From a virus: a stretch of 42,720 nt of DNA. The DNA is taken from the IMG/VR virus record IMGVR_UViG_3300010371_000056, positions 1-42,720 of that record; one strand, given 5' to 3'. Shown in pieces: positions 6,760 to 38,876 of the stretch. Below the pieces are notes generated by a model. The model was not told where the DNA came from, made no database searches, and saw only the letters and a list, made by a program, of their open reading frames with translations. The stretch's first letter is position 1, and every line of letters begins with the position of its first letter. Both the position numbers and the translations under genes were made by a program.

Positions 6760-7247
6760 CTTACCCTCCTGGTCTTACGGTCGGCTACGTTGCAAGCGGC
6801 GAGCCACTCTCCCGGCTCATCGAATGGCGTAGTGCGGGGGGCCCATCACACGCGACCACACTCGTAGCGCCAGGATGGGTGATCGACGCGCGCTTCTGGG
6901 GAGGGGTGCAGGAACGCCCAGTTTCGTACCTCGCTGGTTCAACGGTCAGATGGCTGCGCGTACCCGCTTCGCCCGCTCAGGTGCAGGGCGTCATCGCGTT
7001 CCTCAAGGAGCAAATCGGCAAACCGTACGACTGGCGCGATATTGTCGGTTTCGCAATCCCCCAGGCCTTCACTCGTGACTGGGATGACGGCCGTGCCTGG
7101 ATCTGCAGTGAGCTTCAAGCTGCCGCCGAGGAGAGCCAAGGGATTATCACCACTTCTATGAGCGCGTCTCGCATTGCCCCAAACGATGCGATGCTGCTGA
7201 ACGAAGGCCGTGGCGTGGTCGAACTTCCGGGACCGATTTTCCAATGA
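6756..7247 (+). CDS. Permuted NlpC/P60 (YiiX-like) hydrolase
   Basis: A 163-aa protein starting at ATG 6756 (ATGA overlap). The circularly permuted papain layout is visible: SHATTLV with H32 near the N-terminus, then IGKPYDWRDIVGF, then WICSEL with C117. This order (His first, Cys later) is that of the YaeF/YiiX NlpC/P60 group, which act as amidases or peptidases. It is a candidate endolysin or cell-wall peptidase here, as no lysozyme was recognised elsewhere. No signal peptide is visible, so a holin would be needed for access to the wall. Confidence 0.65.
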   Translation: MTYPPGLTVGYVASGEPLSRLIEWRSAGGPSHATTLVAPGWVIDARFWGGVQERPVSYLAGSTVRWLRVPASPAQVQGVIAFLKEQIGKPYDWRDIVGFAIPQAFTRDWDDGRAWICSELQAAAEESQGIITTSMSASRIAPNDAMLLNEGRGVVELPGPIFQ

Positions 7248-7423
7248 GCGAGATCGTCGATATCGCCGATTTCCGCCAGAAGCGGCCCGAGTACGTCTTT
7301 GAGTGCAAATGTGGCAGCCAGCATTTCTACTTGCAGGTCGATGGGGTGATCGAGTGCCGTAGCTGTAAGCTCATCATCGAACGGATCGAATGGATGTACC
7401 GAGAGAAGCCTCAGGAGTGCTGA
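7244..7423 (+). CDS. Small zinc-ribbon protein (59 aa)
   Basis: ATG 7244 overlaps the previous stop and opens a 59-aa frame ending TGA 7421-7423. Residues 21-41 contain CKC and CRSC (CKCGSQHFYLQVDG then ECRSCKL), a classic short phage zinc ribbon, after an N-terminal MSEIVDIADFRQKRPEYVF. Coupling and the typical motif make it a convincing gene. Confidence 0.7.
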   Translation: MSEIVDIADFRQKRPEYVFECKCGSQHFYLQVDGVIECRSCKLIIERIEWMYREKPQEC

Positions 7424-8260: not shown

Positions 8261-8461
8261 ATGAATCCACCCAAATGCCGACTCTGCAAGAAGGAACACT
8301 ACGGACGATGCGTTGATTTTGAATCGGAGCCAGAGGCGGTTGTGGTTCCAAGGTCGAGTCTCGCTACAGCGCACAAGAAACGCGCGACTCGCGGGACCTT
8401 CGACCGGACCGCCTACCAGCGAGAGTACATGCGGCGTCGGCGAGCGAAGGCTTTACGTTGA
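8261..8461 (+). CDS. Small zinc-knuckle phage protein before terminase
   Basis: A 66-aa protein starting MNPPKCRLCKKEHYGRC, giving a C-x2-C...H...C knuckle (residues 6-17) that is common in small phage proteins near the packaging genes. The C-terminus is very basic (YQREYMRRRRAKAL) and probably helical, suggesting DNA or RNA binding. There is no clear Shine-Dalgarno before the ATG; the tandem palindrome occupies that place. Confidence 0.65.
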   Translation: MNPPKCRLCKKEHYGRCVDFESEPEAVVVPRSSLATAHKKRATRGTFDRTAYQREYMRRRRAKALR

Positions 8462-10949: not shown

Positions 10950-11218
10950 TCCTCGACTCCAAGACCGCCCAGCCGCGCTGCACCTGCACCGTCGAGCTTC
11001 TTTCGCGCCTCTTTCGACCGTACAACTTCCTCGTGACCGTTACTGGAGAGCCTCCTCACGCATTCGTGCGCCGCTACCGGATCTCGGCCCCTACGGACAA
11101 TGAGGCTGCAACGTGTGCCATGCAGCTTTTCGTGAAGGAATGCATGGCGGATCAGGGTGTGCCCGAGGCCGTCCGCAAGGAAATCGCCTCCATTACTCCC
11201 CGGGCCAAGTTGCAATGA
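10946..11218 (+). CDS. Hypothetical phage protein
   Basis: A 90-aa protein, ATG overlapping the previous stop (ATGA). It shows alternating strands (FLVTVTGEPPHAFVRRYRIS) followed by a helix (NEAATCAMQLFVKECMADQG). The end of the gene (11210-11218) overlaps the promoter-like sequence of the portal leader. No family recognised. Confidence 0.6.
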   Translation: MILDSKTAQPRCTCTVELLSRLFRPYNFLVTVTGEPPHAFVRRYRISAPTDNEAATCAMQLFVKECMADQGVPEAVRKEIASITPRAKLQ

Positions 11219-11239
11219 TGCTACCCCTTGTGAGATAAA
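11210..11239 (+). promoter_or_regulatory. Sigma70-like promoter of the portal operon (copy A)
   Basis: TTGCAA (11210-11215), an 18-nt spacer and GATAAA (11234-11239). Predicted transcription would start about 11246, at the foot of hairpin 1. The same arrangement precedes the capsid and fibre genes (16805-16833, 35672-35699), which supports it being a real late promoter. Confidence 0.5.
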
Positions 11240-11245
11240 ACGCAT

Positions 11246-11318
11246 GGGCTGCCCGGCGCAGCCTTTTCGCCCCTTGGGTCCCCTCTAGCTCCGGCAGCCA
11301 AGAGACCTCCACTAGGAG
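11246..11318 (+). ncRNA. Structured 5' leader, copy A (portal)
   Basis: Hairpin 1: GGCTGC (11247-11252), loop CCGGC, GCAGCC (11258-11263), then TTTTC. Element 2: GGTC (11277-11280) and GACC (11304-11307) enclose exactly 23 nt, inside which TCT/AGA (11284-11286 with 11301-11303) and GCT/AGC (11288-11290 with 11296-11298) pair around a second CCGGC loop. CTCC (11307-11310) can pair with the ribosome-binding site GGAG (11315-11318), 7 nt before the TTG start of the portal gene. Copies B and C repeat this with different but compensating bases. The fold is my manual prediction; translational control is inferred. Confidence 0.6.
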
Positions 11319-11325
11319 TGTCTCT

Positions 11326-13662
11326 TTGTCTGGCCTAGCCGGCAACCTTCGTCTCGTACCGCCGCAATCAGCGGCTCCTGAACCTGCTGATGTAGTCGTT
11401 GAGGTCGAGTCAGGCGGTGACTCGCCTATCGTCGATGACAAGAACAACATCCTACGTATCGAGCACGGTGACGGCTCGATTACAGTCTCACTCGACGGGA
11501 AACCGCTAGGCAATGAGGGCAAGCCCGAGAAGCCGCTCGAGTGGTTCGACAATCTCGCCGAGCGCATCGACAAGGACGAACTCGCGAGCATCACCGAAGA
11601 TTTACTGCGCGGGGTATCTGAGGACCTTCAGTCCCGCAGTGAATGGATCGAGGATCGCGCGCAAGGCGTGCGACTCCTCGGGCTCAAAATCGAGTTGCCC
11701 AACGTTCAAGGTGCCACCGACGGGGCGCCCGTCGAGGGCATGAGTCGGGTACGCCACCCTCTGCTACTTGAAGCGGTGCTCAGATTCCAGGCGAACGCCC
11801 GGGGTGAACTGCTCCCGACAGACGGTCCAGTCAAGATCCGCAACGACTCGACCTCGCCCACATCAATTGACAATGCAGTCGCGAATGCTCTGGAAGTAGA
11901 CCTCAACCACTACCTGACTGCGGTGGCGACCGAGTATTACCCCGACACCGACCGGATGCTATTTCAGGTCGGCTTTGGAGGAGGAGGCTTTAAGAAAGTC
12001 TACAAGTGCCCCCTTCGCATGCGGCCGGTGTCAGAGTCCGTTGATGCTAAGGACTTGATAGTCAATCAATCGGCGACTGACCTGGCAAACGCTCAACGTG
12101 TCACACATCGCGTGACGATGAAGCCCTCTACCGTGAGGCGCATGCAACTCCTCGGGGTCTATCGCGATATCAAGCTAGGCGATGCGGTAGCGTCAACTCA
12201 GAATTCACTCGATGATGAGGAGAAGGCGCAACAGGGCATTACAGTAAACACGCTTGGAAGGCCCGAGGATCGAGAGCGGGAGATCTACGAGATCTACTGC
12301 GAACTCGATATCAAAGGTTTCGAACACAAGATTAACGGTAAGGAGTCGGGGCTCGCAATTCCCTATGTAGTGACGATCGACAAGTCATCGCGCGAGTGTC
12401 TGGCGGTGGTCCGAAACTACGGCAAGGAAGACAAACCCCTTCCCACTGCGCGCAAGCGCTTCGTGCTCTATCCCTTCGTGCCGGGTCTTGGTTTCTATCC
12501 AATCGGGCTGCTGCACATCCTTGGAAACACGACCAACGCGGTCACCGCGGCATGGCGTGAGATGCTCGATAACGGCATGTTCGCGAATTTCCCAGGGTTC
12601 CTCATGCAGGATGGTGGGGGGAGGCAGAACACGAATATCTTCCGAGTACCGCCTGGCGGTGCGGCGCCGATCAAGACCAACGGCGTGGCGATTAGGGAAG
12701 CGGTGATGCCGCTTCCCTACAGCACGCAGGGAATGCCAGCGACGATGCAGCTCGTCGAGAACATGGTAGAGACGGGCCGTCGACTGGGTGGAACCGCTGA
12801 GGTGCAAGTCGGGGAGGGCAGGGCGGATGTGCCAGTCGGGACAGTGCTCGCCCTCATAGAGCAGGCGGTCAAGATGCTGAGCGCCGTGCACAAGCGAATT
12901 CACGCTGCACAAGCCGAGGAATTCCAGCTGCTGAAAGAGCTATTCAAGGAGGATCCGGAGAGTTTCTACCAGCGCGGTTGCAAATCCAAGACTCCGTGGG
13001 ACCGGGAGAGCTTCTTGGCTGCGCTCAACAACTGCGACATGGTTCCGCAGGCCGATCCAAACACAGCCTCTCGTGGCGAGCGCCTGATGAAGGTTCAAGG
13101 ATTGCTGCAACTTTCAGGATCGGCTCCGCAGCTCTACGATCCGATCAAGACGCACACGGCAGCCCTTCAGGCCATGGGGTGGATGGACCCGGAGCTGTTC
13201 TTCATCCCGCCTGAAGCCCGTACGAAGCCTCCCATCCAGTTGCAGCAGGCCCAGGCTGAGATGGAAAATGACAAAGCGCAGGCTGGAGCGAAAGTCACTG
13301 AGGCGAATGCCCGCGCAACCGAGGCGCAGGCAAAGGCGGATGAAATCAAGGCGAAGTCGGAGTCTGGCGCGTTCGCGCCGAAACACGAGACCCCATCTAC
13401 TGCGGCACCGGATTCGCAACTCGATGTAGCCACCGCTCATGCAAAGCTGATGGATGCTCAAACCCGCGCGCGGGAAGTCGCGCAAAAGGGCCTCGCGCAG
13501 GCCGCTCAGCTACACAGTGACTCGCTTGATCGAGAATCGCGGACACGAGATGACGCGATTGACCTTGCGAAGACAGTCATCACCGACCCTGCTGACGCTG
13601 CTGGAGTTGGCCAGAAGGCGACGGGAATTATTCACCAGATCGAAAAAGGTCTTCGTAAGTAA
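11326..13662 (+). CDS. Portal protein
   Basis: A 778-aa protein with TTG start 11326, 7 nt after GGAG; no better start lies nearby and the first residues SGLAGNLRLVP are protein-like. The large size, acidic N-terminus, segment SRVRHPLLLEAVLRFQANARGELLPTDGP (residues about 141-169) and position right after the terminase fit the P22-type/podoviral portal family. Residues about 640-690 are a long charged coiled coil (QAQAEMENDKAQAGAKVTEA). It forms the dodecameric channel at the capsid vertex through which DNA is packaged and ejected. Confidence 0.82.
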   Translation: MSGLAGNLRLVPPQSAAPEPADVVVEVESGGDSPIVDDKNNILRIEHGDGSITVSLDGKPLGNEGKPEKPLEWFDNLAERIDKDELASITEDLLRGVSEDLQSRSEWIEDRAQGVRLLGLKIELPNVQGATDGAPVEGMSRVRHPLLLEAVLRFQANARGELLPTDGPVKIRNDSTSPTSIDNAVANALEVDLNHYLTAVATEYYPDTDRMLFQVGFGGGGFKKVYKCPLRMRPVSESVDAKDLIVNQSATDLANAQRVTHRVTMKPSTVRRMQLLGVYRDIKLGDAVASTQNSLDDEEKAQQGITVNTLGRPEDREREIYEIYCELDIKGFEHKINGKESGLAIPYVVTIDKSSRECLAVVRNYGKEDKPLPTARKRFVLYPFVPGLGFYPIGLLHILGNTTNAVTAAWREMLDNGMFANFPGFLMQDGGGRQNTNIFRVPPGGAAPIKTNGVAIREAVMPLPYSTQGMPATMQLVENMVETGRRLGGTAEVQVGEGRADVPVGTVLALIEQAVKMLSAVHKRIHAAQAEEFQLLKELFKEDPESFYQRGCKSKTPWDRESFLAALNNCDMVPQADPNTASRGERLMKVQGLLQLSGSAPQLYDPIKTHTAALQAMGWMDPELFFIPPEARTKPPIQLQQAQAEMENDKAQAGAKVTEANARATEAQAKADEIKAKSESGAFAPKHETPSTAAPDSQLDVATAHAKLMDAQTRAREVAQKGLAQAAQLHSDSLDRESRTRDDAIDLAKTVITDPADAAGVGQKATGIIHQIEKGLRK

Positions 13663-14624: not shown

Positions 14625-15068
14625 ATGAAGTCAGCGGCGGTTCAGAAGGTTCGAGAGACGGAATACGACCCAAAACGCGAGATTCTCGACAAACTCGGCG
14701 ATCTTTCAGGCATCGAGATAGCGCAGAACGAGGTACTTCTCGCCATTTACATGCGTCCGGAGAAGACTACCGGCGGCATCGTGCTTCCGCATCAGAACCT
14801 GAAAGAAGATCGCTACCAGGGCAAGTGCGGAATGGTCGTGAAAATGGGTCCCGCCTGTCGCTTCCTTCGCAAGGACGGCGAAACAGGCGCTGAATACGGC
14901 CTCGACATCAAACTTCACGACTGGGTTGTCGTGCGTCCCGCCGATACGTGGGCAGTTGATATCAATTCCGACACCGAGGGACTGCAGATTCAGGACTTCG
15001 TGCAGTGCCGGCTCGCTTACGACGATCAAATTCGCATGCGCGTGACAGATCCGCGCGTGATTTGGTGA
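14625..15068 (+). CDS. GroES-like cochaperonin-fold protein
   Basis: A 147-aa protein. Residues about 36-66 read VLLAIYMRPEKTTGGIVLPH followed by a charged segment and GKCGMVVKMGP. This matches the GroES/Cpn10 pattern of a first strand, a flexible loop ending in GGIVLP, and the strand ending in G-x-V-x2-x-G-P/N. It is longer than host GroES (about 97 aa), with an N-terminal extension and extra residues near the end. Phage cochaperonins (for example T4 gp31) help GroEL fold the major capsid protein, and this gene lies in the head assembly operon. Confidence 0.72.
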   Translation: MKSAAVQKVRETEYDPKREILDKLGDLSGIEIAQNEVLLAIYMRPEKTTGGIVLPHQNLKEDRYQGKCGMVVKMGPACRFLRKDGETGAEYGLDIKLHDWVVVRPADTWAVDINSDTEGLQIQDFVQCRLAYDDQIRMRVTDPRVIW

Positions 15069-16804: not shown

Positions 16805-16833
16805 TTGACACGCTGATTTGATCGTGCGATAAG
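16805..16833 (+). promoter_or_regulatory. Sigma70-like promoter of the capsid operon (copy B)
   Basis: A perfect TTGACA (16805-16810), a 17-nt spacer, then GATAAG (16828-16833; ATAA matches). It is the best promoter-like sequence I see in the window. Transcription would begin near 16840-16843, right at hairpin 1 of the leader, matching the arrangement at the portal and fibre genes. Confidence 0.6.
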
Positions 16834-16842
16834 CACACCAAC

Positions 16843-16921
16843 GGGTTGCTCGGCGCAACCTTTTCTCAGAATAGATTCAGGTCCCCCGTAGCCTAGGTGG
16901 CGACGCGACCTCCGGTCGGAG
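16843..16921 (+). ncRNA. Structured 5' leader, copy B (capsid operon)
   Basis: Hairpin 1: GGTTGC (16844-16849), loop TCGGC, GCAACC (16855-16860), then TTTTC. It differs from copy A by one compensating base pair and one loop base. Element 2: GGTC (16880-16883) and GACC (16907-16910) enclose 23 nt with CGT/ACG (16887-16889 with 16903-16905) and GCC/GGC (16891-16893 with 16899-16901) around loop TAGGT. CTCC (16910-16913) can pair across GGTC with GGAG (16918-16921), the ribosome-binding site 9 nt before TTG 16931. Confidence 0.6.
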
Positions 16922-16930
16922 ATCGCTACC

Positions 16931-17548
16931 TTGAGCAACGTGAATGCTCCTTTTGGCTTCCAGCAGCGCCAGGGCACTGGCAGCTCGCCGACATACGAAC
17001 AAGTCACATTCGGCAATGGCGGCATCGACTACAACGCTACCGCCATCTACTTCGGCGACCCGGTAGTCCGCGCAGGTTCCGGCGACGGTACCGTTAAGCA
17101 AGCCGCAGGCTCCGCGGGCGGTAGCACCGTCACGATGGCCGGTATCTTCGTCGGCTGCAAATACCTCTCCACTGCGCAGAAGCGCATCGTCTGGTCGAAC
17201 TACTGGCCTGGCTCGGATGTAGCCCAGGCGAATCAGTCGACCATTGAGGCGTACGTCATCAACGATCCCAACGCCCAGTTCTTGGCGCAGTCCGATTCAA
17301 CCGGCCTCGCGCAGGCAGACGTCGGGTCCAACGTCGATTTTAATATCGGCACTGGAAACGCTGCCAACGGGCTCTCGGGAGCCTTCCTGATCCACACGGG
17401 CGCGACAACTGCCGCCTATCCTTTCAGGCTCGTGAGCTTGGTGCTCTCGCCGCCTGGTGCAAATGGAACCGCAAGTGGCGCGTACAATTACGCGGTCGTG
17501 GCGTTCAACAACGTCGAGACCAAGAACGCCACTGCGGCCAACACCTAA
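16931..17548 (+). CDS. Head decoration-like structural protein
   Basis: A 205-aa protein from TTG 16931, 9 nt after GGAG; a GTG at 16940 is less well spaced. It begins SNVNAPFGFQQRQGTGSSP, a start typical of structural proteins encoded just before the major capsid gene in many podoviruses. The rest is beta-rich (VVRAGSGDGTVKQAAG; GGSTVTMAGIFVGC). Probably a capsid decoration or stabilising protein made in high amount from the strong promoter just upstream. Confidence 0.65.
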   Translation: MSNVNAPFGFQQRQGTGSSPTYEQVTFGNGGIDYNATAIYFGDPVVRAGSGDGTVKQAAGSAGGSTVTMAGIFVGCKYLSTAQKRIVWSNYWPGSDVAQANQSTIEAYVINDPNAQFLAQSDSTGLAQADVGSNVDFNIGTGNAANGLSGAFLIHTGATTAAYPFRLVSLVLSPPGANGTASGAYNYAVVAFNNVETKNATAANT

Positions 17549-17564: not shown

Positions 17565-18479
17565 ATGGCCGTCAATCTGAGTGCAATCAAAGACCTTCTG
17601 CTCCCGGGCCTGCGTGGGATTACCGGAAAATATGAGCAGATACCATCTCAATACGACAAGGTCTTTACCAAGTTCAATTCGAAGCTTGCTCTCGAGCGCA
17701 CCGCCGAGATGCGCTATTTGGGGCTTGCGCAGCTGAAGACCGAAGGCGGTCAGACGCAGTTCGACAACAACGCCGGTGAGCGCTACGTCTACAACCAGGA
17801 GCACGTTGAGATCGCCCTCGGGTATGCGATGACCCGCAAGGCCATCGACGACAGTCTGTACAAGACGCAGTTTCACCCGTCGAACCTGGGCCTTATGGAG
17901 GCTTTCCACCAGGCGAAGGAAATCTATGGGGCGAACATCCTCAATTCGGGATCCACGTACAACGCCTCGGTGGGTGGCGATGGGGTTGCGCTCTTCTCGA
18001 CATCGCACCCGATCGACGGGGGCACGATCGGCAATACGCCATCGACTCAGGTGGACCTGAACGAGGCGACGCTTCTCGGGTCGATGATCAACATTCGCAC
18101 GAACTTCCGCGACCAGGCTGGCCTGAAAATGTTCGCCCGCGGTCGAAAGCTGATCGTTCCGCCGCAGCTCGAGCCGGTCGCCATCCGCCTCACGAAGACG
18201 GAACTGCGGCCGGGAACGGCCGACAATGACGTGAACGCTATCCTCTCCACCGCTGGAGGAATCCCCGAAGGCTACATGGTGATGGACTTCTTGACCTCGC
18301 TCTACGCGTGGTACCTCCTCACCAATATCCCCGGCTTGGCCTACATGGAGCGCATCCCGTTTGAGACGGACATGCAGGTGGACTTCGTCACGGACAACCT
18401 CCTCACGAAGGGGTACGAGCGCTACTCGTTCAATTATTTCAACTGGCGCGCGGCATACGGAAACCTGCCCACTTCCTAA
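17565..18479 (+). CDS. Major capsid protein (HK97 fold, Mu gpT-like)
   Basis: A 304-aa protein, ATG 17565 with AGGAG 8-10 nt upstream. Size and position fit a capsid protein. Motifs such as YAMTRKAIDDSLY, NILNSGSTYNASVGGDGVAL followed by FSTSHP, FARGRKLIVPPQLEPVA and WYLLTNIPGL match Mu gpT-like and related HK97-fold head proteins. It would form the capsid shell around the scaffold at 15073. Folding may depend on the GroES-like protein at 14625. Confidence 0.82.
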   Translation: MAVNLSAIKDLLLPGLRGITGKYEQIPSQYDKVFTKFNSKLALERTAEMRYLGLAQLKTEGGQTQFDNNAGERYVYNQEHVEIALGYAMTRKAIDDSLYKTQFHPSNLGLMEAFHQAKEIYGANILNSGSTYNASVGGDGVALFSTSHPIDGGTIGNTPSTQVDLNEATLLGSMINIRTNFRDQAGLKMFARGRKLIVPPQLEPVAIRLTKTELRPGTADNDVNAILSTAGGIPEGYMVMDFLTSLYAWYLLTNIPGLAYMERIPFETDMQVDFVTDNLLTKGYERYSFNYFNWRAAYGNLPTS

Positions 18480-35671: not shown

Positions 35672-35699
35672 TTGACTAGCCTTCTCATTAGCGCAAGAT
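35672..35699 (+). promoter_or_regulatory. Sigma70-like promoter of the fibre operon (copy C)
   Basis: TTGACT (35672-35677), 16-nt spacer, CAAGAT (35694-35699). Weaker -10 than copies A and B. Predicted start about 35706, just before hairpin 1 of the leader, as in the other two copies; this shared geometry is the main support. Confidence 0.45.
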
Positions 35700-35708
35700 G
35701 CTCGTATA

Positions 35709-35790
35709 GGACCCGCTAGGTGCGGGTTCTGATGATTTTCTAGGTCCCGCATTCCCCGGCGGATATGCAGACCTCCAATTGATTTTGGAG
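35709..35790 (+). ncRNA. Structured 5' leader, copy C (fibre operon)
   Basis: Hairpin 1: GGACCCGC (35709-35716), loop TAGGT, GCGGGTTC (35722-35729), one G-U pair, followed by TGATGATTTTC. Element 2: GGTC (35743-35746) and GACC (35770-35773) enclose 23 nt with GCAT/ATGC (35749-35752 with 35765-35768) and TCC/GGA (35753-35755 with 35761-35763) around loop CCGGC. CTCCAA (35773-35778) can pair with TTGGAG (35785-35790), hiding the ribosome-binding site 8 nt before ATG 35799. Confidence 0.6.
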
Positions 35791-35798
35791 TGCTCTGC

Positions 35799-38700
35799 AT
35801 GAGCAAGATATTCATCCTGAAGCGGCTCGCGTGCGCTTTAGCCCTCATTGGCTTTTGCGGAATCGCCTCTGCGCAGACAGCCTTTCAGACTTGCGCCTTC
35901 AGCGACCCAACGCACTGCTATGGGATCGGACCGGGGACATCAGGACAGGTATACATATCGCAGGGACCGGCCGCGTACCCAGCATTTGGTCAGCTTGACC
36001 TAAGTATTGGTGTCAAGAACATTCTGCCGAGCGCCAATGGCGGTACCGGACTGTCATCGCTTACCCCGAGCGACTGCCTCGCAGCGAACTCAGTGGGTAC
36101 GGCGTTTACCTTCGTGCCATGTGGCAGCGGGGGAATGGTTTACCCAGGAGCAGGAATCGGTGTTTCAACGGGATCGGCGTGGACCACCAGCATCAGTGCG
36201 CTCTCTGGTTTGAATTCGTTTCTTGGAATAACGCTGCCATCGGTGAGCGGCAGTCCGACTACGGGACACCTCGTCTACTGGCAGACTGGCGGCACTAATC
36301 CCGTTCTTGGAGATCTAAACTTCACCGGTTCCGGCAACGCGGTTCTCGCCAACAGTCCGACGTTGATCACGCCGAATATTGGCGCGGCCATTGCATCTGG
36401 ACTCACGTTCTCCGGTATCACGGGCTCTACGCAGTGCCTGCACGTCAATAGCTCGGGCGCTGTTTCCGGGACTGGCTCGGATTGTGGCTCAGGCAGCGGA
36501 GGTACTCCCGGGGGAGCGACCAGTAACATCCAGTACAACAACGCCGGCGCGTTCGCCGGATCAGCTAATTTTACCTTTGATGGGGCCCATACGGTTACTC
36601 TAGGAGATGGAACCGCGGCTGTTGTTACCTCGCCTATCGGTATTAACTTTAATGTGCAAAGCGCATCGTCTTCAGCGACAACCGGAAATGGAGGAATTCT
36701 AACGGTAGCTGGTGGATCGATTTCAAATTCAAGCAACGGTGGCAATGCAGGAACCGTCGTAATAGCAGGCGGTGGAGCAGCTGGCTCCGGCTTCGCTGGT
36801 GGTATAAACCTATGGGCAGGTTCGGATTCAAACGGTCTATCTGGAAGCGGAGGAAACATACAGCTGTCAGCAGGCAGTGGAGCAACTAAAGGAACTATAA
36901 ACTTCCTCCTCCCAGGACAAGGATCGATTGTCACAAAAATGGGAACAGACGGTGGCTGGACTTTTGGCAGCCCAACCGGAGGAGACGAGGGCGTAGGCAC
37001 CATAAACGTAGCTTCCGGTCTATACCTCAATGGCGCTCTGGCTCCGGTAATTTCAGGATCGATCACCACGGGTCACTGCGTGGAGTGGGCATCGGCCACG
37101 ACGCTACAGGACGCTGGCGCAATCTGCGGCTCAGGTGGGTCTGGCATTACGCAGCTCACGGGCGACGTAACCGCTGGTCCTGGGAGCGGATCACAAGTGG
37201 CCACTCTCGCCGCAAGTGGGGTTACCGCTGGCAACTATACGAACCCCAGTATCACCGTAGATGCTAAGGGCCGCATTACTGCCGCAGCGAATGGTTCTGG
37301 AGGGGGCACCGTCACGGACGGGGCGGGCACGACGACCGCCAATGAGCTTGCGGTGTCGACCACGACGGCGCACGCCCTCGGGTATTCGGCGACGCTGCCC
37401 ACGGCGGCTGAGCCGGCGCATACAGGAGACGTGACCAATACTGCCGGCTCTCTGGCAATGACGGTCGGCAAGATCAACGGCGGCACCGTTCCGGCAAGCG
37501 CAACCTTGCTCGGCACGAATAGCTCGAGTCAGCCTGTCGCCGCGACGGCTGCGAATGTTCTGGCACTCATCAACAGCCAGACCTGCAACGCTCAGACCGG
37601 CACGACCTACACCTTCGTCATCGGGGATGCGAATGGTTGCATCACAGGCAGCAATGCCTCGGCGCAGACCTATACCGTGCCGCCCAATTCGAGTGTGGCG
37701 TACTCGACCGGTACGACGCTGACGTTGGTCCAGCTCGGCGCCGGTATTATCACCTTAGGTCCCGGAAGCGGTGTCACGCTGCAATCGCTCAAGTACGGGA
37801 GTTCCACGAGTCAGACCTACGCGATGGCCGGCGCCTATGACTGCCTGAGCTTGCAGAAGACGGCGACGGATACCTGGTTCGTCTCGGGCTGCGCCTACAA
37901 TCCTGGCGGCGGCTCCGGTACGGTCACAAGCGTTGGGTTGTCGGCACCGTCTGTATTTAGCGTCAGCGGTACCCCTGTCACAGGCTCCGGCACGCTGGCG
38001 CTAACCTTCGCCACGGGCCAGACGGCGAACGAGTTCCTTGCCACCCCCAATGGCGCCTCGGGAGCGCTGGGGCTGCGGGCAATCGTTGCGGCCGATCTTC
38101 CTGGCAGTATCACATCGAACACGTCAGGCACGTCGGCGAACATCACCGGCACGTCGAATTCCACGCTGACGACGCTCTCAGCGCTGACGAGCGCGAATGG
38201 ATCAACCGTCCCGGCTACCGCTGGTACGTTGGTCGGCTCCTCGGGCACCTTCACACTGAATGATTGCCTTGAGGTTGGCGCGACGAGCCCGCTCAAAATC
38301 ATCGACACCGGCGCGGCATGCGGCTCGGGCGGCGGCGGAAGTGCTTTCAGCGCTCTGACCTCGGGCACCAACGCCACGGCCGCTATGACCGTGGGCACTG
38401 GCGCAAGTCTTGCGGCGAGCGGCACTGGCTCGATTGCCGCGACATCCCTGACCGCGCTCTCGGGCCTGCCGTCTCAAGCGGCCGACACGATCGTGGCAAA
38501 CGCGACCGGCTCTTCAGCGAGTCCAACCGCAGTGTCGATCTCGGCATTCCAGATGGCGCTGCTTCAGGCCAACACGAAGTTCACCGTCGCCGGCACGGGT
38601 TGCACCCCGGGCACCACGACGGGTGGCCCCACAGCCGGCACGGTCACGCTCGCCACAGGCCCCTGCACGTCGATCGTGATCACCATGAACGGCGCGACGG

Positions 38701-38876
38701 GCCTGACTGCCCCCAACGGCTGGCACTGCAATGTGGAGGACAAGACGCTGCAGGCGGCGGGGACGTGGTTTGGCGAATGGGGCGAGTCATCGAGCACCAC
38801 GACAACGGCGACCATTGCCGTGCCGGCCGCTGCCGCCGCAACGGACGTGCTCTCCTTCAACTGCTCGGGGTACTGA
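35799..38876 (+). CDS. Large tail-fibre-like protein with Sec signal peptide and Cys-pair repeats
   Basis: A 1025-aa protein; ATG 35799 chosen (GGAG 8 nt upstream) over GTG 35790. Signal peptide: MSKIFILKRLACALALIGFC then GIASA before QTAF. Fibre motifs: NGGTGLSSLTPSDCL, GTVTSVGLSAPSVFSVSG, GALGLRAIVAADLP. At least four units with a cysteine pair followed by GSG: C93-C108, C213-C229, C427-C443, C823-C841. A middle part (about 36580-37020) is visibly richer in A+T and glycine repeats (GGNAGTVVIAGGG), suggesting an inserted module. The C-terminal domain is a beta domain with two cysteines. Likely a host-binding fibre whose export allows disulfides. Confidence 0.68.
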   Translation: MSKIFILKRLACALALIGFCGIASAQTAFQTCAFSDPTHCYGIGPGTSGQVYISQGPAAYPAFGQLDLSIGVKNILPSANGGTGLSSLTPSDCLAANSVGTAFTFVPCGSGGMVYPGAGIGVSTGSAWTTSISALSGLNSFLGITLPSVSGSPTTGHLVYWQTGGTNPVLGDLNFTGSGNAVLANSPTLITPNIGAAIASGLTFSGITGSTQCLHVNSSGAVSGTGSDCGSGSGGTPGGATSNIQYNNAGAFAGSANFTFDGAHTVTLGDGTAAVVTSPIGINFNVQSASSSATTGNGGILTVAGGSISNSSNGGNAGTVVIAGGGAAGSGFAGGINLWAGSDSNGLSGSGGNIQLSAGSGATKGTINFLLPGQGSIVTKMGTDGGWTFGSPTGGDEGVGTINVASGLYLNGALAPVISGSITTGHCVEWASATTLQDAGAICGSGGSGITQLTGDVTAGPGSGSQVATLAASGVTAGNYTNPSITVDAKGRITAAANGSGGGTVTDGAGTTTANELAVSTTTAHALGYSATLPTAAEPAHTGDVTNTAGSLAMTVGKINGGTVPASATLLGTNSSSQPVAATAANVLALINSQTCNAQTGTTYTFVIGDANGCITGSNASAQTYTVPPNSSVAYSTGTTLTLVQLGAGIITLGPGSGVTLQSLKYGSSTSQTYAMAGAYDCLSLQKTATDTWFVSGCAYNPGGGSGTVTSVGLSAPSVFSVSGTPVTGSGTLALTFATGQTANEFLATPNGASGALGLRAIVAADLPGSITSNTSGTSANITGTSNSTLTTLSALTSANGSTVPATAGTLVGSSGTFTLNDCLEVGATSPLKIIDTGAACGSGGGGSAFSALTSGTNATAAMTVGTGASLAASGTGSIAATSLTALSGLPSQAADTIVANATGSSASPTAVSISAFQMALLQANTKFTVAGTGCTPGTTTGGPTAGTVTLATGPCTSIVITMNGATGLTAPNGWHCNVEDKTLQAAGTWFGEWGESSSTTTTATIAVPAAAAATDVLSFNCSGY

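Follow-up and report, generated by a model that had tools for sequence, protein, structure and literature searches.

Why would a phage place the same promoter and structured leader in front of several of its virion genes? In tailed phages, control of late genes is usually placed at transcription, and the original prediction for this locus was of a phage-encoded RNA control element, copied before the portal, capsid and fibre operons, that balances virion protein synthesis. The window, that is, the whole stretch of DNA analysed, is an entire IMG/VR virus record (linear, 42,720 bases). We find that its three copies are one conserved 5'-leader element, and a control element of late virion genes is supported by homologs, covarying stems and a predicted transcript start at the first hairpin. 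A competing hairpin over the ribosome-binding site (RBS) and start codon speaks for an ON/OFF switch in translation, not for a balancer of stoichiometry.

Three leader copies in one phage genome

The pattern GGTCCC-N{10,30}-GACCTCC matches exactly three times in the 42.7-kb record, always on the + strand, and the reversed pattern has 0 matches; for the AGGTCCC...GACCTCC form, the expectation is 0.00 (100 shuffles). These matches mark copies A (11210-11328), B (16805-16933) and C (35672-35801), each of which is recovered by the covariance model R2 described below (A, 11245-11328, E = 6.7e-13; B, 16842-16933, E = 3.6e-16; C, 35709-35801, E = 4.6e-10). The leader consists of a sigma-70-type promoter, hairpin 1, a linker, a helix P_I (GGTC/GACC) that encloses hairpin 2 and a competing helix P_II that covers the RBS and usually the start codon. 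The predicted shared order of elements was confirmed, as were the CTCC facing GGAG in all three copies and the interval of 23 nt between GGTC and GACC (11281-11303, 16884-16906 and 35747-35769), which is not fixed at that length in relatives. The loops follow Y-M-G-G-Y as predicted, with hairpin 2, the inner hairpin, carrying the same motif as hairpin 1 (hairpin 1/hairpin 2: CCGGC/CCGGC in A, TCGGC/TAGGT in B and TAGGT/CCGGC in C). P_II, an extended alternative hairpin in which the GAC strand and CTCC pair with the RBS/start-codon region, goes beyond what had been predicted.

Copy A opens with a promoter (11210-11239, +; TTGCAA at 11210-11215, 18 nt, GATAAA at 11234-11239) recognised by sequence and promoter scoring. 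Hairpin 1 follows at 11246-11264 (+; loop CCGGC, 11253-11257), as judged by the R2 match and covariation, and then P_I (11276-11308, +), whose strands GGGTC (11276-11280) and GACCT (11304-11308) enclose hairpin 2 (GCT-CCGGC-AGC, +; loop at 11291-11295). P_II (11300-11328, +) pairs AAGAGAC-CTCC with GGAG-(T)-GTCTCTT in the MFE structure, with further support from the swap test, and takes in both the RBS GGAG (11315-11318, +) and the start codon TTG (11326-11328, +). The copy was thus placed correctly at the outset, but its proposed end at 11318 falls short of the real one, which is the start codon. The gene behind it (11326-13662, +) encodes the portal, as expected (PHROG 1216 portal, E = 5e-28).

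Copy B has the promoter TTGACA-17-GATAAG (16805-16833, +; sequence and promoter scoring), hairpin 1 at 16842-16861 (+; loop TCGGC, 16850-16854; R2 match) and P_I (AGGTC/GACCT; 16879-16911, +) with hairpin 2 (loop TAGGT, 16893-16897). Its competing hairpin (16896-16933, +), seen in the MFE structure and conserved in position among relatives, lies over the RBS GGAG (16918-16921) and ends just short of the start codon TTG (16931-16933). Assignment of this copy to the capsid operon needs refinement: it first precedes a gene of 205 aa (16931-17548, +), and the major capsid protein gene comes next (17565-18479, +; PHROG 371 major head protein, E = 2.6e-11), whose product shares 81% identity with the capsid protein annotated in MW202675.1. 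We modelled the 205-aa protein with AlphaFold2 from an alignment of 23 relatives (mean pLDDT 80.8). The top structural match was the TW1 capsid-stabilizing protein (probability 0.93, E = 0.009, TM 0.34-0.42), with chains of the Sf11 capsid ranking next; the TM-scores are weak, and from this fold match the protein encoded directly 5' of the capsid gene is likely a decoration or cement protein.

In copy C the promoter is weaker by sequence and promoter scoring (35672-35700, +; TTGACT, with a -10 near 35694-35700). Hairpin 1 (35710-35728, +; loop TAGGT, 35717-35721; R2 match) and P_I (AGGTC/GACCT; 35742-35774, +), with hairpin 2 (loop CCGGC, 35756-35760), precede a P_II that pairs ATGCAGA...CTCCAA with TTGGAG...TCTGCAT (35765-35801, +; MFE), and both the RBS (35787-35790, +) and the ATG (35799-35801, +) lie under it. 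The copy stands before the ATG at 35799, and the gene it precedes (1025 aa; 35799-38876, +) is fibre-like by content and not firmly assigned, matching PHROG 21978 (unknown function). The protein also has a signal-peptide-like N-terminus (MSKIFILKRLACALALIGFCGIASAQ), which is unusual for a virion fibre.

Two other genes of the region deserve mention. Between portal and capsid genes, 14625-15068 (+) encodes a GroES/Cpn10-like protein (E = 0.0017, below cut-off), and in named distant relatives the corresponding place is taken by a gene annotated as co-chaperonin GroES. Just 5' of the probable terminase small subunit gene, 8261-8461 (+) encodes a 66-aa protein with a CxxC motif and an arginine/lysine-rich C-terminus, for which no convincing family match was found.

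Distribution among related phages

Related loci were collected with the portal and two capsid proteins as queries, giving 61, 80 and 80 loci, respectively; two of the last 80 duplicated earlier ones, leaving 78. A first covariance model (R1), which combined the window with five relatives, detected the leader in many further loci, and refined models were made for the window's group including hairpin 1 (R2) and for a second group (R3). The element was present in 135 of 158 related IMG/VR capsid loci (64/80 and 71/78, E<0.01), counts that are not numbers of independent lineages, as some loci are truncated or identical in sequence, and that include sequences used to build R2 and R3. R2 matched 35 loci of the first capsid set and R3 another 29, while R3 accounted for the 71 of 78 in the second. 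Each of these loci has one match, on the coding (+) strand and before the decoration gene upstream of the capsid gene; some loci have an extra gene in front of the capsid gene. The further matches that the original prediction called for in related phages thus exist, many of them upstream of late genes.

R3 also matched a GenBank phage genome from Manatee Spring (MW202675.1, E = 9e-17), in which a tRNA-like stretch and a terminator-like hairpin, both read by eye, lie just upstream of the leader. Loci from six named but more distantly related phages (L288-L293, L377 and L378) had no match to either R2 or R3. No cultured phage with the element was found among the genomes compared. Among whole records, 30/38 had a match at E<1e-4. 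The usual copy number was one, and most relatives have their single copy before the decoration-capsid pair; the three copies of the window are therefore unusual and make it the richest record found. Other positions were seen as well: ahead of a late gene of 175 aa, where promoter, hairpin 1 and P_I are all complete (L311, record G010), upstream of the portal (L026), before an 83-aa gene preceding the portal (L023; weak, E = 0.013) and before the terminase large subunit (L024). Because of these extra or different positions, the leader behaves as a modular unit set in front of several late operons.

A broad pattern scan of IMG/VR returned 63 stretches, five of them strong with R1 (E<1e-4), including three on contigs already collected; the remaining stretches look like chance. 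One contig of 90,582 bases (L261, IMGVR_UViG_3300010965_000005) has two copies of the element on opposite strands with equal scores, which looks like an inverted assembly duplication and not two real copies. The sole capsid-gene relative in the genome collection (L379, JAIYCA010000241.1) lies on a 9.3-kb contig from a Planctomycetaceae metagenome bin, and its assignment to that host is doubtful.

Promoter and predicted transcript start

TTGACA-like and TATAAT-like hexamers lie upstream of most leaders, with a mean best score of 8.5 compared to 6.9 for shuffled sequences (87 leaders). Across the 52 leaders with the best-scoring promoters, the gap between the -10 box and hairpin 1 has a median of 8 nt (quartiles 7 and 9), and the transcript is therefore predicted to begin at hairpin 1. 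This consensus argument from promoter spacing agrees, as a prediction, with the mRNA 5' end that had been proposed near the first hairpin.

Conserved structure and covariation

The element is almost certainly a conserved structured RNA. Hairpin 1 is paired in 99.3% of cells, with double-sided changes at 5/6 pairs, and the whole structure has a covariation score of 0.467 compared to 0.153 in shuffles. We ranked pairs against a home-made null in which substitutions were redistributed on a FastTree tree (150 simulations): five hairpin-1 pairs and one hairpin-2 pair topped the list with E = 0, and in the second group the top pairs were again in hairpin 1 but below significance (best E = 0.47). A swap test, comparing the duplex energy of each leader's own arms with that of arms from other phages (representatives <72% identity), gave z of -10.5 for hairpin 1 in group 1, the window's group, -10.1 in group 2 and -15.8 in both together. 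For P_II the values were -6.3, -3.1 and -7.1, respectively, and -7.5 for its arms near the start codon.

P_I yielded z of 0.2 (group 1), -2.8 (group 2) and -3.2 (both). Within the window's group this helix varies so little that no covariation can be seen, and compensatory changes occur elsewhere (GCTC/GAGC in L096, GTTTCC/GGAAAC in L251 and L281, and AGTC/GGCT in L230 and others), so that support for this helix comes mainly from across groups. The covariation above background that the original prediction required is therefore strong in hairpin 1 and P_II and weaker in P_I. The arms covary freely and use G-U pairs, which disfavours a DNA operator palindrome. Outside the stems, conservation in alignment A4 is mostly confined to the two pentaloops and the GGTC/GACC strand, while the linker between hairpin 1 and P_I is variable (about 10-20 nt).

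The loops of both hairpins are mostly YNGGY pentaloops, a consensus that was partly guided, because the parser favoured NGG loops, and that also stands out in a plain MAFFT alignment. Exceptions are matched between the two hairpins, with CCGTT in both (L251 and L281) or GCGAT in both (L114, hand-assigned). Loop cores of hairpins 1 and 2 agreed in 79/92 compared to 74.3 in shuffles (31/5000), a modest statistic that rests on two independent lineages. This co-change fits, modestly, a single binder reading both loops better than pairing between the loops. Kissing of the loops through the self-complementary CCGG was rejected as a general rule, since TAGGT, CAGGT, CCGTT and GCGAT are not complementary to their partners. 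Taken together, the comparative data support the element, its hairpins, P_II, the shared strand and the conserved loops.

Two predicted, mutually exclusive folds

P_I and P_II exclude each other because both use one GACC strand, which in P_II belongs to the 5' arm (11304-11307 in copy A). Over 82 leaders, the mean MFE is -31.8 kcal/mol compared to -25.6 with P_I forced. In the free ensemble the RBS is unpaired with a value of 0.13 and the start codon with 0.34, rising to 0.27 and 0.55 when P_I is forced; the gain from P_I is thus clearer at the start codon than at the RBS, where a small residual hairpin persists. Seven of the 82 leaders already have P_I in the MFE structure, with P_II weak or absent, and these seven lineages may regulate differently.

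A probable translational switch and its alternatives

We propose the following model. A sigma-70-type promoter would start the mRNA at hairpin 1, as its spacing suggests, and the leader would fold in two mutually exclusive ways. In P_II, predicted to be the more stable state, its 3' part would pair with the RBS and usually the start codon, and translation would be off. In P_I, the GACC strand would instead pair upstream with GGTC around hairpin 2 and release the start codon. Hairpins 1 and 2 would present YNGGY to one trans-acting factor, most likely phage-encoded, whose binding would hold P_I and turn translation on. Host-transcribed late genes would thus remain locked until enough of the factor had built up. 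That the element is a translational switch at all we regard as probable. The full model, with default OFF and a trans-acting activator, we favour with somewhat better than even confidence; in it, the binding of a protein, what that factor is and which way control runs are inferred. We prefer activation to repression because the loops belong to the fold that is incompatible with P_II.

The sites at which the element occurs also bear on an opposite reading, in which the two YNGGY hairpins are bound by a virion protein, for instance that of the decoration or capsid gene, which thereby represses translation of its own message, as at a coat-protein operator. The most constant site is before the decoration-capsid pair, the downstream gene probably encodes a capsid decoration protein, both hairpins share one loop motif and hairpin 2 adjoins the RBS. 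Capsids can need large matched amounts of decoration and capsid proteins, as in phage GP4, whose capsid holds 540 copies of each (PMC9698820). By the architecture, however, binding at hairpin 2/P_I would open the start site, a repressor would make the separate default-OFF hairpin P_II redundant, and the element also stands before terminase, portal and fibre-like genes; we consider such autogenous control unlikely. Slightly more doubtful is a kinetic timer without any factor, in which P_I would form first (ON) and P_II later (OFF), limiting output per transcript, with the 5' hairpin mainly stabilising the message. P_I does lie 5' and is predicted in the nascent RNA (mean probability 0.62), P_II is more stable and hairpin 1 coincides with the predicted 5' end, a position from which a hairpin can protect mRNA, but a timer leaves the conserved YNGGY in both loops and the matched changes in L251, L281 and L114 unexplained.

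Two further readings appeal to known RNA devices. In the first, the leader would be an RNA antiterminator like HK022 put, making host RNA polymerase read through the late operons. Two hairpins that open long operons directly after a sigma-70-type promoter would suit it; it is nonetheless very improbable, as a put-only role does not predict a covarying RBS/start-codon hairpin or conserved loop sequences, the linker between the hairpins is variable and the Rfam search was without match. The exchange of P_I and P_II could also serve a small-molecule riboswitch or RNA thermometer, and a bistable layout with SD sequestration resembles translational riboswitches. We rate this the least probable of the readings: alignment A4 has no large conserved junction or pocket, and a simple hairpin in duplicate is more usual where a protein binds.

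Returning to an activator-dependent switch, gene content gave no clear candidate for the factor, because about ten late-gene protein families, too many to choose from, are common to all 11 other element-bearing genomes compared and undetected in the two distant phages. A 59-aa zinc-ribbon-like ORF (7244-7423, +; CxC...CxxC; Pfam Zn_ribbon_CSL, E = 0.0015, below cut-off), which we take to be Com-like in size and cysteine layout, was rejected, its only homolog being in one close relative (G005). A broader scheme, to which we give a little less than even credence, is a late regulon run at translation and not at transcription, in which a mobile promoter-leader cassette, copied before terminase, portal, decoration-capsid and fibre-like genes, would hold virion mRNAs made by the host polymerase in the closed fold, and one phage factor reading the twin YNGGY hairpins would shift every leader to the open one.

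Comparison with known systems

The original claim that no described family fits is supported: Rfam 15 had no match in the window at gathering scores, with only a chance-level CPEB3 hit on the other strand in the copy B region (E = 0.49), and the literature searched, mostly outside subscription journals, held no description of the element. No tRNA was found in the window. Several known RNAs share parts of the layout. The Two-AYGGAY RNA motif in Rfam also has two hairpins sharing one terminal-loop motif, whereas the element has a YNGGY loop, a hairpin competing for the RBS and a place before late phage genes. In single-stranded RNA phages such as MS2, a coat-protein operator hairpin at the RBS controls virion-related gene expression; the element differs in occurring in dsDNA phages and in having two hairpins with an alternative fold and no known binder. 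As in translational riboswitches, there are two mutually exclusive helices of which one sequesters the SD, with weaker comparative support for P_I than for P_II.

HK022 putL lies just downstream of its promoter and comprises two stem-loops in about 70 nt (PMC9378689). The element resembles put in being a phage leader with two stem-loops downstream of a promoter, but it has a linker between the hairpins, conserved loops and a sequestered RBS and start codon. The compact V-shaped fold of two adjacent stem-loops, about 70 nt long, is not seen in the element, where a linker separates hairpin 1 from P_I.

Closest in anatomy is Mu mom, where Com binds a loop-motif hairpin beside a translation-inhibition hairpin that holds the start codon, and the start signals are exposed (PMC6483171). 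In both systems a loop-bearing hairpin adjoins one that sequesters the start codon (PMC6483171); in the element the latter is P_II, which is predicted and covarying and is weak or absent in 7/82 leaders. Mu has one short site and one accessory gene, whereas the element has two same-loop hairpins plus an exclusive helix, its own promoter and several virion operons, and the loop motifs are YNGGY and CC(N)2-3GAG (Mu), respectively. By this anatomy the element may work like com/mom, and we do not claim membership because no Com homolog is shown and the loop motif differs. A leader so widespread and covarying, if it does compete for the RBS of the capsid operon, would count as a new RNA family and as a way of timing late genes by translation in a large group of environmental phages. 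Its twin hairpins suggest themselves as bait for a new phage RNA-binding protein, and a portable translational switch for laboratory use might be made from it. We rate the element as a new RNA family of an already known regulatory kind.
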